DNA of 50,581 nt, taken from the NCBI GenBank assembly GCA_028099475.1, contig JAOHHF010000005.1, positions 1 through 50,581 of the forward strand, written 5' to 3'. Below, piece after piece: positions 9,217-44,895 of the stretch. How positions within the stretch are numbered: the stretch's first letter is position 1; each line of letters opens with the position of its first letter. The stretch comes from Candidatus Pelagibacter sp. (lineage in GTDB: Bacteria > Pseudomonadota > Alphaproteobacteria > Pelagibacterales > Pelagibacteraceae). The position numbers were made by a program, and so were the translations under genes. The notes under the pieces were generated by a model. It made no database searches, had not been told where the DNA came from, and was given only the letters and a program-made list of their open reading frames with translations.

Positions 9217-9293
9217 GCGCTTGTAGCTCAACTGGATAGAGCGCCTGACTTCGGATCAGGAGGTTCTGGGTTCGACTCCTAGCAGGCGCGCCA
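9217..9293 (+). tRNA. tRNA-Arg (anticodon UCG)
   Basis: A complete 77-base cloverleaf including an encoded CCA. The acceptor arm GCGCTTG (9217-9223) pairs with CAGGCGC (9283-9289) through seven pairs including one G-U. The D stem is GCTC/GAGC. The anticodon stem CCTGA/TCAGG encloses the loop CTTCGGA, giving anticodon TCG, which reads CGA and, by wobble, other CGN codons. The T stem CTGGG/CCTAG holds the loop TTCGACT. Discriminator is G at 9290. It lies on the plus strand between two minus-strand genes, so it is transcribed on its own. Confidence 0.97.
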
Positions 9294-19956: not shown

Positions 19957-22616
19957 TGAAAAAACTAATTTTAAATTTTAAAGCTAAAGATAGTAAAAAA
20001 ATTAAAAATCCTAAAAATTTTCTAGGTGGAAAAGGTGCAAACTTATCTGAGATGGGGCGAATGGGTCTTCCTGTTCCACCAGGTTTTACAATTTCAACAA
20101 AAGTATGTGAACTTTTTTACATAGATAGGAAAAAATTAAATAAAAATATAATTAGTCAAATTAAAAAAGAGTTAAAAATAATTGAAAAAGATGTTGGAAA
20201 AAAATTTGGAGATTTAAAGAATCCTTTACTTCTTTCTGTAAGATCGGGAGCTAGAGTTTCAATGCCTGGTATGATGGATACTATTTTAAATCTTGGTTTA
20301 AATGACAAAACTGTAAATGCATTAGCTATAAAAACTTCTAATGGAAGATTTGCCAAAGACAGTTATAGAAGATTTATCCAAATGTATGGCAATGTAGTAA
20401 TGGGTGTCGAAGGCTATCATTTTGAAGAATTAATTGAAAACTATAAACTTACCAAAGGAGTTCTTTTAGATACTGACTTAGATGAAAATGATTGGGATGG
20501 ATTAATAGTTGACTTTAAAAGAACTGTGAAGGAGAAAGCCAAAAAAGAATTTCCTCAAGATGTTTATGAGCAATTACTTGGGGCAATTAGTGCCGTATTT
20601 TTATCTTGGGAAAGTAATAGAGCAAAAGTTTATAGAAAATTAAATCAAATTCCAGCTGAATGGGGAACAGCTGTAAATGTTCAGTCAATGGTTTTTGGCA
20701 ATATGGGAGAAGACTGCGCTACAGGAGTGGTATTTACCAGAAATCCTTCAGATGGATTAAATGAAATCTATGGTGAGTATTTAATTAATGCACAAGGTGA
20801 GGATGTTGTGGCTGGAACAAGAACACCACAATACATTACAAAAAAAGCAAGACAACAAGCAAAAGTTAAGGCTCCATCAATGGAAGAAGTAATGCCTAGT
20901 GTTTACAAACAACTTCATAAAATTTTAAAGAAATTAGAAAAACATTACAGAGACATGCAAGACGTTGAGTTTACAGTTGAAAATCAAAAACTATGGATGC
21001 TTCAAACTAGATCTGGAAAAAGAACAGCTAAGTCAGCGGTAAAAATCGCAGTTGATATGGTTAAAGAAAAATTAATTTCAAAAAAAGAAGCTGTTTTAAG
21101 AATTGATCCAAATTCTTTGGATACATTACTTCATCCCACTTTAGATGAAAAAAGCTCAATAAATGTTATAGCCTATGGCTTACCAGCATCTCCTGGAGCA
21201 GCTAGTGGAAAAGTAGTTTTTACATCAGAAGAAGCTGAAAGATTAACGGGGATGATGCAAGATACAATTTTAGTTAGAGTTGAGACTTCTCCGGAAGATA
21301 TTCAAGGAATGCATGCAGCAAAAGGTATTTTAACTGCAAGAGGAGGGATGACAAGTCATGCTGCGGTAGTTGCAAGGGGAATGGGAAGACCGTGTGTTTC
21401 AGGTTCTAGCGAGATAGATATAAATTACGAGAATAAATCATTTAAAACCTCATCTATGGAAATTAAAGAAGGTGAAGTTATAACTATAGATGGTTCTACA
21501 GGTAGAATCATTTCAGGAAGTGTTGCAACTGTAAAACCAGAAATTTCTGGTGATTTTTCTAAATTAATGTCATGGGCTGATAATTTTAGAAAATTAAATA
21601 TTAGAACAAATTCAGAAACACCAAAGGACACAAAAACGGCAAAAGATTTTGGTGCAGAGGGCATTGGTCTTTGTAGAACAGAACATATGTTTTTTGATGA
21701 AGAAAGAATTTTATCTGTTCGTGAAATGATTTTATCTAAAACTAAAGAAGATAGAGCTAAAGCACTTGATAAACTTTTACCTCATCAAAAAAAAGATTTT
21801 GTAGAAATTTTTAAAATTATGGGCGGGTTGCCGGTTACTGTTAGATTGCTTGATCCTCCTCTTCATGAATTTTTACCTCGAACAGAAAAAGAAATAAATG
21901 AAGTGGCAAATGTTGTTAGTCTTTCAGTCAAAGAGGTAGAGTCAAGAATAGATGAGCTACATGAGCAAAATCCAATGTTGGGCCATAGAGGTTGTAGACT
22001 TGGTATATCTTTTCCAGAAATTTATGAGATGCAATGCAGAGCTATTTTTGAAGCGTTAGTTGAGCTAAAAAAGAAAAAAATTAAATCAGCTTTTCCAGAA
22101 ATTATGATTCCTCTAGTATCTACAGAAGCTGAAATTAAAATAATGAAAGATTTAGTAATTAATATTGCTAGCGAGGTTCAAAAACTACAAAAAGTCAAAA
22201 TAGAATTTATGGTTGGTACAATGATTGAGCTTCCAAGAGCTGCAATAAAAGCAAAAGAAATTGCTAAACATGCAGAGTTTTTTAGTTTTGGAACTAATGA
22301 TTTAACACAAACAACATTTGGAATTAGCAGGGATGATAGTGGAAAATTTTTAAATGATTATTTAGATAATAAAATATTTTCAATTGATCCATTTGTTTCA
22401 ATAGATGACGGAGTTGCAGATTTAGTAGAAATTGCTGTTGAAAAAGGAAAAAGTCAAAATAAAAAATTGAAACTTGGAATTTGTGGTGAGCATGGAGGTG
22501 ATCCAAAAAGTATTGAGTTTTGTTCTAGAGTAGGTCTAAATTATGTTTCTTGCTCACCTTACAGAGTACCTATTGCTAGATTGGCTGCTGCTCAAGCAGA
22601 AATAAAAAAACAATAA
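19956..22616 (+). CDS. ppdK: pyruvate, phosphate dikinase
   Basis: An 886-residue three-domain enzyme. The N-terminal ATP-grasp domain shows GGKGANLSEMGRMGLPVPPGFTIS interrupted only by family variation, and RSGARVSMPGMMDT. The swivelling domain has the phospho-histidine segment GGMTSHAAVVARGMGRPCVSG, near residue 465. The C-terminal PEP/pyruvate barrel has GLCRTEHMF, LPVTVRLLDPPLHEFLP and GTMIELPRAA. PPDK interconverts pyruvate + ATP + phosphate and PEP + AMP + PPi; it can work in gluconeogenesis or as a PPi-saving replacement for pyruvate kinase. It closes the peptidase-glyQS run and converges on ssrA. PEP synthase is excluded by the N-terminal form and by length (about 790 for PpsA). Confidence 0.97.
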   Translation: MKKLILNFKAKDSKKIKNPKNFLGGKGANLSEMGRMGLPVPPGFTISTKVCELFYIDRKKLNKNIISQIKKELKIIEKDVGKKFGDLKNPLLLSVRSGARVSMPGMMDTILNLGLNDKTVNALAIKTSNGRFAKDSYRRFIQMYGNVVMGVEGYHFEELIENYKLTKGVLLDTDLDENDWDGLIVDFKRTVKEKAKKEFPQDVYEQLLGAISAVFLSWESNRAKVYRKLNQIPAEWGTAVNVQSMVFGNMGEDCATGVVFTRNPSDGLNEIYGEYLINAQGEDVVAGTRTPQYITKKARQQAKVKAPSMEEVMPSVYKQLHKILKKLEKHYRDMQDVEFTVENQKLWMLQTRSGKRTAKSAVKIAVDMVKEKLISKKEAVLRIDPNSLDTLLHPTLDEKSSINVIAYGLPASPGAASGKVVFTSEEAERLTGMMQDTILVRVETSPEDIQGMHAAKGILTARGGMTSHAAVVARGMGRPCVSGSSEIDINYENKSFKTSSMEIKEGEVITIDGSTGRIISGSVATVKPEISGDFSKLMSWADNFRKLNIRTNSETPKDTKTAKDFGAEGIGLCRTEHMFFDEERILSVREMILSKTKEDRAKALDKLLPHQKKDFVEIFKIMGGLPVTVRLLDPPLHEFLPRTEKEINEVANVVSLSVKEVESRIDELHEQNPMLGHRGCRLGISFPEIYEMQCRAIFEALVELKKKKIKSAFPEIMIPLVSTEAEIKIMKDLVINIASEVQKLQKVKIEFMVGTMIELPRAAIKAKEIAKHAEFFSFGTNDLTQTTFGISRDDSGKFLNDYLDNKIFSIDPFVSIDDGVADLVEIAVEKGKSQNKKLKLGICGEHGGDPKSIEFCSRVGLNYVSCSPYRVPIARLAAAQAEIKKQ

Positions 22617-22635
22617 TATATTTAAAGGTTAGTAA

Positions 22636-22893
22636 GGGGCGTTCTGTTGCCAGGTGCCCCGGACCCCGTCTACTTAATTAACAGAGTTAATTAGGCAGCA
22701 AGTGCGTAACTTTCGTTAGCAATTATAAATTAGCCCGTTACGGTGGAACAATTCCGAACAAAAGAATAGCCTTTAGTCATCCGTCGAATCTAGTTCACCC
22801 CCATAAGTTGTAATGGTGGAGGTGGTGGGTACTGCCCCCACGTCCGCAATGGTTATTACGAAATTCGTTTATCGTCATAGTTGGAAAACCAAC
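22636..22893 (-). ncRNA. ssrA: tmRNA, circularly permuted two-piece alphaproteobacterial form
   Basis: On the minus strand the order is: acceptor piece, short spacer, coding piece. The acceptor piece ends with T stem GTGGG/CCCAC (22841-22825) around the loop GGCAGTA, then CACCTCC (22824-22818) and ACCA (22817-22814). An 11-base spacer (22813-22803) follows. The coding piece begins GGGGGTG (22802-22796), which pairs with CACCTCC through seven pairs; the third pair is G-U, the alanine identity element. Next come the tmRNA hallmark AGATTCGACGG, the tag frame (22720-22691), a hairpin holding the tag stop codon (22693-22675) and a GGGGC/GCCCC stem (22660-22636). GGCTATT (22771-22765) and AATAACC (22857-22851) can pair six of seven as the P2 helix joining the pieces. 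The precursor probably starts near 22893 with the hairpin GTTGG-TTTT-CCAAC. Exact mature ends are estimates. tmRNA with SmpB rescues stalled ribosomes and tags the peptide for proteolysis. Confidence 0.94.
22691..22720 (-). other. tmRNA tag reading frame (ANESYALAA, stop)
   Basis: Read on the minus strand from GCT at 22720-22718 the codons give A-N-E-S-Y-A-L-A-A followed by TAA at 22693-22691. With the alanine carried on the tmRNA, the added tag would be AANESYALAA. The YALAA ending is that recognised by ClpXP and ClpAP in E. coli (AANDENYALAA). The stop lies in the 5' side of an AT-only hairpin, as in other tmRNAs. Confidence 0.92.
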
Positions 22894-22899
22894 ATTATT

Positions 22900-22927
22900 A
22901 ATATAAAAGCATTTAAAAGAGATTCAA
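22900..22927 (-). promoter_or_regulatory. ssrA: probable ssrA promoter
   Basis: Minus strand TTGAAT (22927-22922), 16 bases, TATATT (22905-22900). The -10 matches five of six positions and the -35 four. A start about seven bases downstream would be at 22893, exactly where a perfect 5-bp hairpin with a UUUU loop begins. The -35 is nine bases from the thyX start codon at 22936, so ssrA and thyX are divergent with overlapping control regions. Confidence 0.55.
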
Positions 22928-22935
22928 TAAAAATC

Positions 22936-23883
22936 ATGAAATTAACTAGTGAACAAACACAAGAGATTAAAGAACAACAGTCTCAACAAAATCAAACCAA
23001 AAGAGTTACGGCCCCAGCACTTGAAAATATTCTATACGAGGCAATGCCAGCATTAGATCATGGTTTTGTAAGGGTTGTAGATTATATGGGTGATGATACA
23101 TCAATTGTTCAATCAGCTAGAGTTTCTTATGGTAAAGGAACTAAACAAGTTTCTACAGATGCAGGTTTAATTAAATATTTAATGAGGCATTGGCACAGCA
23201 CTCCGTTTGAAATGTGTGAAATTAAATATCACGTTAAGCTTCCAATTTTTATTGCTCGACAATGGATTAGGCATAGAACAGCAAATGTAAATGAATATTC
23301 AGCAAGGTATTCAATTTTAGATAAAGAATTCTATTTGCCAACAGCTGAAAATTTAGCAGCACAATCTTCAAGCAATAGACAGGGAAGAGGAGATGTTTTA
23401 GAGGGTGAACAAGCAAAAGAAGTTTTAGAGCTCTTAAAAAATGATTCAGAGAGAACTTATGACAATTATGAAACAATGCTAAATGAAAGATTTGATGGTT
23501 CAACTATTGATAAAAATAAAAAAGGTTTAGCTAGAGAATTAGCTAGAATGAATTTAACTTTAAACACCTACACACAATGGTACTGGAAAACTGATTTATT
23601 AAATTTAATGAATTTTTTAAGATTAAGAGCAGATAGTCATGCTCAATATGAAATTAGAGTGTATGCAGACATAATGTTGGATACCGTAAAAAAATGGGTT
23701 CCAATCACTTATGATGCTTTTATGGATTATAGAGTTGGAGGCACTGAAGTTTCAGCAAAAGGGAAAGCTATTATTCAAAAACTTATTAAAGGTGAAAATG
23801 TTGATTTAGAAAGATCAGGACTTTCGAAAAGAGAATGGAACGAGTTAATGATTGCTTTTGATCTTAAAGATAAGTTGATTTAA
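22936..23883 (+). CDS. thyX: flavin-dependent thymidylate synthase
   Basis: A 315-residue ThyX. The family signature is seen in [21 protein letters not shown], that is RHR-X7-S, with the preceding [19 protein letters not shown] cut short here by position. A C-terminal [17 protein letters not shown] segment carries the conserved R/H dUMP contacts. It makes dTMP using methylene-tetrahydrofolate and FADH2 and so replaces ThyA and reduces dependence on dihydrofolate reductase. An in-frame ATG at 22813 would add 41 residues, but that stretch is antisense to the tmRNA acceptor piece and its promoter; the ATG at 22936 ([10 protein letters not shown]) is the likely start. Even so the product is somewhat longer than the usual 210-260 residues, mainly from an N-terminal glutamine-rich lead and insertions. 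The 3' end overlaps mrp by 20 bases. Confidence 0.94.
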
Positions 23884-44160: not shown

Positions 44161-44224
44161 AAATCCTTTATATTTGAAAAAAATGATTAATGCATTTTTT
44201 TTAGGGCATGATATTATGAATATT

Positions 44225-44271
44225 GATAGTCCATCTTAGCCATCTTTAGCTCCCGGTTTTTTTGGACTATC
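44225..44271 (+). promoter_or_regulatory. large inverted repeat in leader of LysE-family gene
   Basis: GATAGTCCA (44225-44233) and TGGACTATC (44263-44271) are exact complements, nine pairs, separated by 29 bases. An inner pairing AGCC (44238-44241) with GGTT (44255-44258) is possible. The right arm ends nine bases before the start codon of the exporter gene, and no clear Shine-Dalgarno lies between. It could be a cis-acting RNA element that controls translation, or an operator. It lies within the 120-base divergent gap between the DUF2805-type gene and the exporter. Confidence 0.45.
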
Positions 44272-44280
44272 TTCCTTAAA

Positions 44281-44895
44281 ATGTACCCCTTAAATTATTT
44301 TCTATTTTTACAGATAATTTTATTTTTATTTATTACCCCTGGGACACCTAGAGTTGTAATAATTTCATATTCTATGAATTATGGAGTTCAAAAATGTATT
44401 TGGACTGCATTAGGAGATGTGACCGCAAATATTATTCAAGCAACTTTAGTAATTTTTGTTCTTGGATCTTTTTTTGTAGATAATCCAAATTTTTTAAATA
44501 TTTTTAAGTGGGCAGGAATAACCTACTTATTGTATCTTGCCTATGATATTTATAATTCAAGACCAAAAGATATTCATTCGGATAATATTTCTTCAAAAAC
44601 TTTTCTTTCTTTCTTTAAAGATGGTTTTTTAGTTGCAGGAACAAGCCCAAAGGCTTGGATGTTTTTTCCACTAATCTTTCCACAATTTATTGATTTTAAT
44701 TCAAATTATATTGTTCAGTTCTTAATTTTAATTACAACGTATGTGGTTTTAGATTTTTTATCCCTAATTGCTTACGCAGTGCTTGCTAGAAAATTAATTA
44801 TTTGGATAAAAGCAAATCCAAAATTTATAAATACAATTTCGGCGTGTGTATTAATATTAATCGCAATAATTATAGCCTTTATTCAAAAGTATTAA
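44281..44895 (+). CDS. LysE/RhtB-family amino-acid exporter-like protein
   Basis: A 204-residue membrane protein with six predicted helices. The N-terminal FLFITPGTPRVVIISYSMNYG is the LysE family's ITPGPxxxxVxxxxxxxG pattern, followed by ALGDVTANIIQATLVI. The second half has FKDGFLVAGTSPKAWMFFPLIFPQFI, the usual N/SPK segment. Family members export lysine, threonine, homoserine lactones or other amino acids; the substrate is not evident. It is preceded by a leader with a long inverted repeat and followed by an 88-base gap before livK. Confidence 0.87.
   Translation: MYPLNYFLFLQIILFLFITPGTPRVVIISYSMNYGVQKCIWTALGDVTANIIQATLVIFVLGSFFVDNPNFLNIFKWAGITYLLYLAYDIYNSRPKDIHSDNISSKTFLSFFKDGFLVAGTSPKAWMFFPLIFPQFIDFNSNYIVQFLILITTYVVLDFLSLIAYAVLARKLIIWIKANPKFINTISACVLILIAIIIAFIQKY

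Follow-up and report, generated by a model that had tools for sequence, protein, structure and literature searches.

Identification of a permuted tmRNA gene

The locus considered here raises two questions: what is encoded on the minus strand in the gap between a pyruvate phosphate dikinase-like gene (ppdK) and a thyX-like gene of a Candidatus Pelagibacter contig, and what use may be made of the end of that gene in related genomes. The window, that is to say the whole stretch of DNA analysed, comprises 50,581 nucleotides of contig JAOHHF010000005.1. The ppdK frame ends at 22616 on the plus strand and the thyX-like frame probably starts at the ATG at 22936 on the same strand, on the other side of the gap; both genes were named by resemblance, and thyX also by synteny with P. 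ubique. A sequence-only reading had placed a circularly permuted two-piece tmRNA on the minus strand of this gap, and two covariance models and ARAGORN agree on it. Indeed (i) the Rfam model alpha_tmRNA (RF01849) matches over its entire length (positions 1-355 of 355) with 225.4 bits (E 4.3e-64; gathering score 50), (ii) the model tmRNA_permuted (RF04321) matches from 22876 onwards with 128.8 bits (E 5.7e-25; gathering score 47) over model positions 1-213 of 213, and (iii) ARAGORN calls a permuted tmRNA at 22600-22908 with the tag ANESYALAA. The outer ends of the ARAGORN call look loose, since conservation ends just past GCCCC(T), at about 22635, in 72 aligned SAR11 sequences. The segment 22893-22636 of the minus strand is almost certainly a circularly permuted two-piece tmRNA gene (ssrA) of a SAR11-type (Pelagibacterales) bacterium.

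Three other identities were considered for this segment. A chance or palindrome artefact is ruled out by the covariance-model scores, a standard one-piece tmRNA by the order of the parts, and a tRNA gene has no counterpart here among the ARAGORN calls, the sole tRNA of the window being a tRNA-Arg at 9217-9293.

The acceptor end, its partner, the 11-base gap between them, the tag frame and the two hairpins all lie where the sequence-only reading had placed them (Table 1). The 3' half of the acceptor stem is encoded upstream of the 5' half, which gives the permuted order, and all seven pairs of the stem form, the third being the G-U pair that had been announced. This G-U pair, present in 26/26 aligned sequences, and the CCA end are the alanine-charging features that can be read from the letters of the window. 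The tag frame likewise shows the hydrophobic end followed by a stop that is usual in this family. Furthermore, the tmRNA strand folds better than shuffled sequences (z -2.78; 1 of 200 shuffles as good). Upstream of the gene, a promoter is predicted; the consensus scan by itself means nothing (one found against 1.6 expected in shuffles), and in the 72-sequence alignment five of the six bases of TATATT are invariant and variation at the sixth touches no more than 10% of the sequences, whereas most preceding bases vary more.

Table 1. Features of the tmRNA gene and of its surroundings in the window (positions are those of the window)
Feature	Positions	Strand	Content and basis
Predicted tmRNA promoter TTGAAT-16-TATATT	22900..22927	-	thyX-tmRNA gap; consensus scan and conservation
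5' hairpin GUUGG/CCAAC	22880..22893	-	Rfam alignment; paired and invariant in 26/26 sequences
Rest of acceptor piece	22814..22876	-	Three helix strands; T arm 22841-22825; acceptor 3' half CACCTCC 22824-22818; encoded ACCA 22817-22814
Intervening segment TTACAACTTAT	22803..22813	-	11 bases; predicted to be removed
mRNA-like piece	22636..22802	-	Acceptor 5' half GGGGGTG 22802-22796; AGATTCGACGG 22791-22781 (TCGACG region); tag frame; AT hairpin 22692-22676; GC-rich stem-loop 22660-22636
Tag frame ANESYALAA and stop	22691..22720	-	GCT AAC GAA AGT TAC GCA CTT GCT GCC TAA; ARAGORN
23-base core GGCACCTGGCAACAGAACGCCCC within the 3'-terminal GC hairpin	22636..22658	-	Putative empty insertion site in the window
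N-terminal extension of the thyX frame, probably false	22813..22935	+	ORF list; overlaps the tmRNA gene

The kind of gene is not new, permuted tmRNA being already described for SAR11. According to the accessible part of Meyer et al. 2009 (PMC2704228), the tmRNA of P. ubique HTCC1062 is, as in the window, split, permuted and located beside thyX, the annotated start of which lies wrongly over part of the gene. Two differences appear against the same portion of that article: the sections are separated by 75-125 bp in general there and by 11 bases in the window, and the neighbour on the far side is COG4696 in P. ubique and ppdK-like in the window. Compared with the two Rfam families, the window matches the whole length of both models, with a spacer and a tag region shorter than the consensus. 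Protein-based annotation would indeed miss the gene, as had been remarked: at its longest, the thyX frame opens at 22813, within the tmRNA gene. The use of the tmRNA is here an annotation fix, namely of the thyX start and of the missing ssrA. Elsewhere in the window, at 44209-44289 (+), an rhtB RNA motif (RF01814) was matched with 78 bits; rhtB RNA is among the candidate RNAs described in P. ubique in the consulted sections of PMC2704228.

Conservation and pairing in relatives

Relatives were collected by a protein search with thyX, which gave at least 590 stretches, at least 582 of them confirmed; the best 80 were kept as loci, all from records titled Pelagibacterales, Pelagibacteraceae or Candidatus Pelagibacter. 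Among these best 80 SAR11 loci, ARAGORN found a tmRNA in 72, and another one, which it had missed (L024), was recovered by pattern. A complete tmRNA was absent from the DNA examined in the seven remaining loci of the 80: L031, L047, L055, L057, L070, L073, and L058, which carries a partial gene at a contig end. In L047, 63 bases weakly match the tmRNA 5' end.

When a pattern demanding the order acceptor half, spacer, partner was run on 89 sequences, it matched 74, namely the window, 72 of the 80 loci and one phage contig, so that the acceptor half comes first there as had been proposed for the window; eight SAR11 loci and seven phage contigs were left unmatched. The halves read CACCTCC and GGGGGTG in all 73 SAR11 matches, and the spacer measures 10, 11 and 12 bases in 2, 54 and 17 sequences, respectively; the pattern tolerated limited variation, and the constancy of halves and spacer is therefore partly due to selection. 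The tag of these 73 sequences is ANESYALAA in 56, ANESYAIAA in 16 and ANESYAVAA in one. A spacer of 17 bases was found in L101, from a later sample. The pattern failed in L069, for which ARAGORN reports a tmRNA: its acceptor end has AAA instead of CCA (CACCTCCAAAA instead of CACCTCCACCA), which is either an assembly error or a tmRNA needing CCA addition.

Pairing was assessed in 26 aligned sequences, chosen by hand. The acceptor stem, the T stem, the 5' hairpin and the GC hairpin are paired and invariant in 26/26, an invariance that by itself says nothing for or against pairing. In the outer GACGA/UUGUU helix the changes are one-sided only and pairing is kept in 130/130 cells; the CGG/CCG helix shows a two-sided change at one pair in one sequence and one pair broken in five sequences; the AT hairpin shows two-sided changes at two pairs (in two sequences and one sequence) and two broken cells. 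Against the model, GAAUUUC/GCUAUUC contains two non-standard pairs in 26/26 sequences and CAU.GCG/CGG.AUG contains one, the same places being flagged in the Rfam alignment. SmpB is encoded in 3/4 and, in a second sample, in 24/30 genomes of relatives, whose completeness is not given; one of the 24 genes has an in-frame stop.

Proposed maturation and function

By analogy with the family, we infer that the window gene gives rise to two RNAs with the spacer excised. One precursor would begin near 22893, the first base of the 5' hairpin and the probable transcript start, perhaps from the TTGAAT/TATATT promoter. The acceptor stem would then close over ACCA and the 11 bases; G22802 would become a 5' end through RNase P cleavage, and trimming from the 3' side would leave the encoded CCA at 22814. 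Two products would result, the acceptor RNA measuring about 80 bases and the mRNA-like RNA about 167, probably held together by the acceptor stem and by three further helices, as is expected from the family. In this family, alanyl-tRNA synthetase charges the tmRNA through the G-U pair and SmpB carries it to stalled ribosomes; the ANESYALAA tag would mark the rescued product for proteolysis.

A decayed or unprocessed gene, whether a pseudogene or a one-piece transcript that works without removal of the spacer, is very improbable. The spacer is indeed very short, with 11 bases against 25 in the single phage match, but the gene is strongly conserved, spacer included (on average 3.4% non-consensus bases in the SAR11 alignment, against 0% in the acceptor halves), ARAGORN finds no second tmRNA elsewhere in the window, and a free CCA end is required for charging. 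The near-invariant SAR11 spacer of 10-12 bases is a natural substrate for work on the minimal sequence needed for the maturation of a permuted tmRNA. The two-piece outcome expected for the window has precedents: a general description has one precursor processed into two RNAs (PMC11915505, in the portion available), and the available text on S. meliloti gives bands of 82 and 204 nt for its two-piece tmRNA (PMC2245857).

A repeated core at the 3' end of the gene

The gene ends in 23 bases (22658-22636), referred to as the core, that recur in some relatives on the same strand, downstream of the tmRNA. This repeated core matters more than the tmRNA itself, as it points to a possible route by which streamlined ocean bacteria gain small genes without an integrase. 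A search with the last 65 bases of the tmRNA matched 74 sequences, 19 of them at least twice. The window has a single copy, with ppdK adjoining, and reads as an empty site. With at most one mismatch, the 23-base core was found in 30/30 genomes reached via the loci, about two thirds of which had been picked because their loci had repeats, and its reversed control in none; it was also found in 80/99 genomes sampled within the family to which G003 belongs, where the control gave none. In 26 of these 99 genomes, inspection by eye showed at least two cores that share contig and strand and lie no more than 20 kb apart; the maximum was seven cores in one genome (G063), the gene's own included.

Core repeats were seen in L002, L003, L012-L014, L021, L022, L024, L026, L028, L034, L043, L050, L051, L061 and L069, and also in the stretches L092-L105; in L095, L098, L100, L102 and L103 there are cores and no tmRNA in the fetched stretch. 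The distance between such a remote core and the tmRNA copy is about 14-17 kb in G125 and G091, about 85 kb in G113 and 290-325 kb in G081; the remote cores of G125 and G091 are perhaps the far ends of larger islands.

Both the end of ppdK and the tmRNA core are visible in 42 loci, of which 14 are empty (core 4-25 bp from ppdK) and 28 occupied, with 0.8-3.4 kb between tmRNA and ppdK. A second core is present in nine of the 28 occupied loci. In five of these nine (L003, L024, L026, L034 and L051), 9-17 bp separate the last core from ppdK, as in the empty state; the distance is 87 bp in L050 and 0.8-1.8 kb in L002, L012 and L013. Flanks were compared in 13 loci. In three of them (L003, L026 and L051), the DNA on the left of the first copy corresponds to the tmRNA side of an empty site (98-100%) and the DNA on the right of the second copy to its ppdK side (81-95%, against 57-60% for shuffled sequence), so that the repeat is the exact point of difference between empty and filled states; for the ten remaining loci, no ppdK side was found within 120 bases of the last copy. 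Taken at the level of these sequence comparisons, the 3' end of the tmRNA gene is probably an insertion site in relatives.

The 19 other occupied loci have one core only, and their inserts (0.9-2.9 kb) are unexplained by intact cores; these are L001, L007, L011, L017, L019, L027, L037, L054, L056, L059, L060, L062, L066, L067, L072, L075 and L077-L079. A rule by which every insert at this place carries a core is thus not borne out. A weaker second copy appeared in the 65-base search in L062.

These repeats could have been produced in several ways. We favour, with a probability of about 0.55, the reading in which a mobile gene-cassette system uses the 3' (non-tRNA-like) end of the SAR11 permuted tmRNA for attachment, with tandem units of about 0.2-2.8 kb, cores in one direction and single units crossing distant SAR11 lineages; the value is 0.55 and not 0.60 because of the 19 of 28 occupied loci that have no second core. 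An unlikely alternative is that the core is a dispersed hairpin, terminator-like or REP-like, and no mark of insertion. It would agree with the GC hairpin that the core forms in its tmRNA copy, with the copies located far from the tmRNA in G081 and G113, and with those same 19 loci. However, the 5' stem GGGGC of the hairpin is intact in just 25 of the 53 copies outside the tmRNA, against 82/82 tmRNA copies, a loss to be expected if what is maintained in these copies is a DNA site rather than an RNA hairpin. Furthermore, no opposite-strand pair of cores within 20 kb was recognised by eye in the 99 genomes, the empty-site flanks bracket the insert in L003, L026 and L051, and, as detailed below, a whole unit is common to two genomes between unrelated flanks.

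Units between cores and their probable transfer

Measured from core to core, 48 segments from 26 loci range from 233 to 2776 bp, with a median of 1176 bp. Sharing between genomes is sparse, since five pairs, involving 7/48 segments, passed the cut for likeness. The clearest case is a 300-bp unit of L021 and L092, 99.3% identical with both cores included, in loci whose thyX and tmRNA genes are 77.1% and 88.8% identical and whose flanks, compared over 150 bases, come close to background (61.5 and 58.7%). Such a unit amid unrelated flanks indicates that at least this one moved singly. Another unit, common to L094 and L097, is 95.1% identical, for 85.3% in thyX, 97.0% in the tmRNA and 59.5 and 64.7% in the flanks.

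Seen by eye, a unit holds between one and a few small genes, and many of these have an N-terminus resembling a signal or membrane segment. Their cargo was scanned with Pfam and PADLOC in 60 hand-chosen ORFs, three of which come from distal or edge segments and the rest from tmRNA-proximal ones. Fifteen Pfam families were matched, including trypsin-like (three ORFs), DUF805 (three), polysaccharide lyase (two), SHOCT (two) and an Mrr-type nuclease domain (one). PADLOC returned RT-Protease_XI (three), PDC-M35A (three) and PDC-M72B (one), which are too few matches for the arrays to be called defence islands.

Should the cassette-system reading be true, an organism that ranks among the most abundant streamlined ones of the sea would own an integron-like gene store hung on its ribosome-rescue RNA. 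The repeated core provides a testable site and a testable unit.

Search for a recombinase

No integrase family was matched by Pfam among the 60 cassette ORFs. Tyrosine recombinases (PF00589) were matched in 21 of 30 genomes (10/18 and 11/12 in the two sets), none near a core, since in every case a different contig or a distance above 300 kb separated the match from the core; mostly there is one protein of about 310-340 residues, with further ones in G009 and G074. Serine resolvases (PF00239) were found in 0/12 genomes. These counts come from fragmented assemblies, in which the gene may sit on a missing stretch. No attC sites were recognised (by eye only). Under the cassette-system reading, the units would be without a recombinase of their own, so that the enzyme would act from elsewhere; it could be the Xer-like recombinase of the cell, or the integrase of a phage or helper element.

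The same searches bear on a different explanation, in which units are swapped by homologous recombination at the cores and at shared cassette ends, no site-specific recombinase taking part. This is possible, though less likely than not. It would account for the absence of a recombinase gene near the core and in the 60 scanned ORFs, and some cassette ends are alike beyond the core. On the other hand, 23-26 bases are short for homologous exchange, and the 300-bp unit of L021 and L092 is flanked by unrelated sequence on both sides.

A phage origin of the window tmRNA was considered and rejected: this tmRNA had no match in a phage collection at blastn sensitivity (E limit 1e-5). The exact core occurs in eight stretches of viral contigs (L084-L091), in 8/8 inside a phage permuted tmRNA gene, so these viral contigs bear no sign of a cassette recombinase. 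The tags of the phage tmRNAs are ADENLALAA in seven and AKTINADENLALAA in L088, and the spacer of L090 measures 25 bases.

Comparison with known systems

In the literature searched, no earlier report of cassette arrays at the SAR11 tmRNA was found. The closest parallels are the following: (i) in Dehalococcoides, tandem islands are anchored at ssrA with direct repeats of about 20 bp of that gene, 11 of them in strain VS (PMC2764846, in the text available), so that many direct repeats of an ssrA end stand in a row as in the SAR11 arrays; (ii) in Ca. Methylopumilus, additive flexible islands lie at tRNA genes with direct repeats of part of the tRNA (PMC10872708, accessible portion), and in Ca. 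Actinomarinales gene cassettes lie at tRNAs (PMC7771536, accessible portion), both sharing with SAR11 a streamlined planktonic life and DNA inserted at direct repeats of part of an RNA gene; and (iii) in the Islander survey, as far as the available part of it goes, no target is more enriched than the tmRNA gene. In view of these parallels, the SAR11 arrays belong to a known kind; unusual are the use of the non-tRNA end, the size of the units and the lack of a visible integrase.

Differences appear within each comparison. The two Dehalococcoides islands described in the portion of PMC2764846 at hand have recombination genes and a reductive dehalogenase cargo, whereas SAR11 units are small and 0/60 scanned ORFs match an integrase family. 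Compared with what the available sections on Methylopumilus and Actinomarinales report, the SAR11 arrays are anchored not in a tRNA gene but where the mRNA-like piece of a permuted tmRNA ends. In contrast to a classical integrative island or a tycheposon, a recombinase next to the attachment site was not found in the genomes searched (30 for PF00589 and 12 for PF00239). As for additive arrays, the direct repeats expected at the ends of an insert are present in part of the cases, namely nine of the 28 occupied loci, and the exact difference between empty and filled states at the repeat was seen in three of the 13 loci compared.

Two minor observations concern the surroundings of the gene in relatives. 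In L079 (3592-3677) and L080 (742-827), the strand opposite the tmRNA carries a tRNA-Leu (gag) gene near the tmRNA 3' end. At the opposite end, L022, L053 and L063 have DNA between thyX and the 5' end of the tmRNA, and in L022 part of the tmRNA 5' region is duplicated (4008-3931 and 2604-2329); from this duplication, the 5' end may also be a target.
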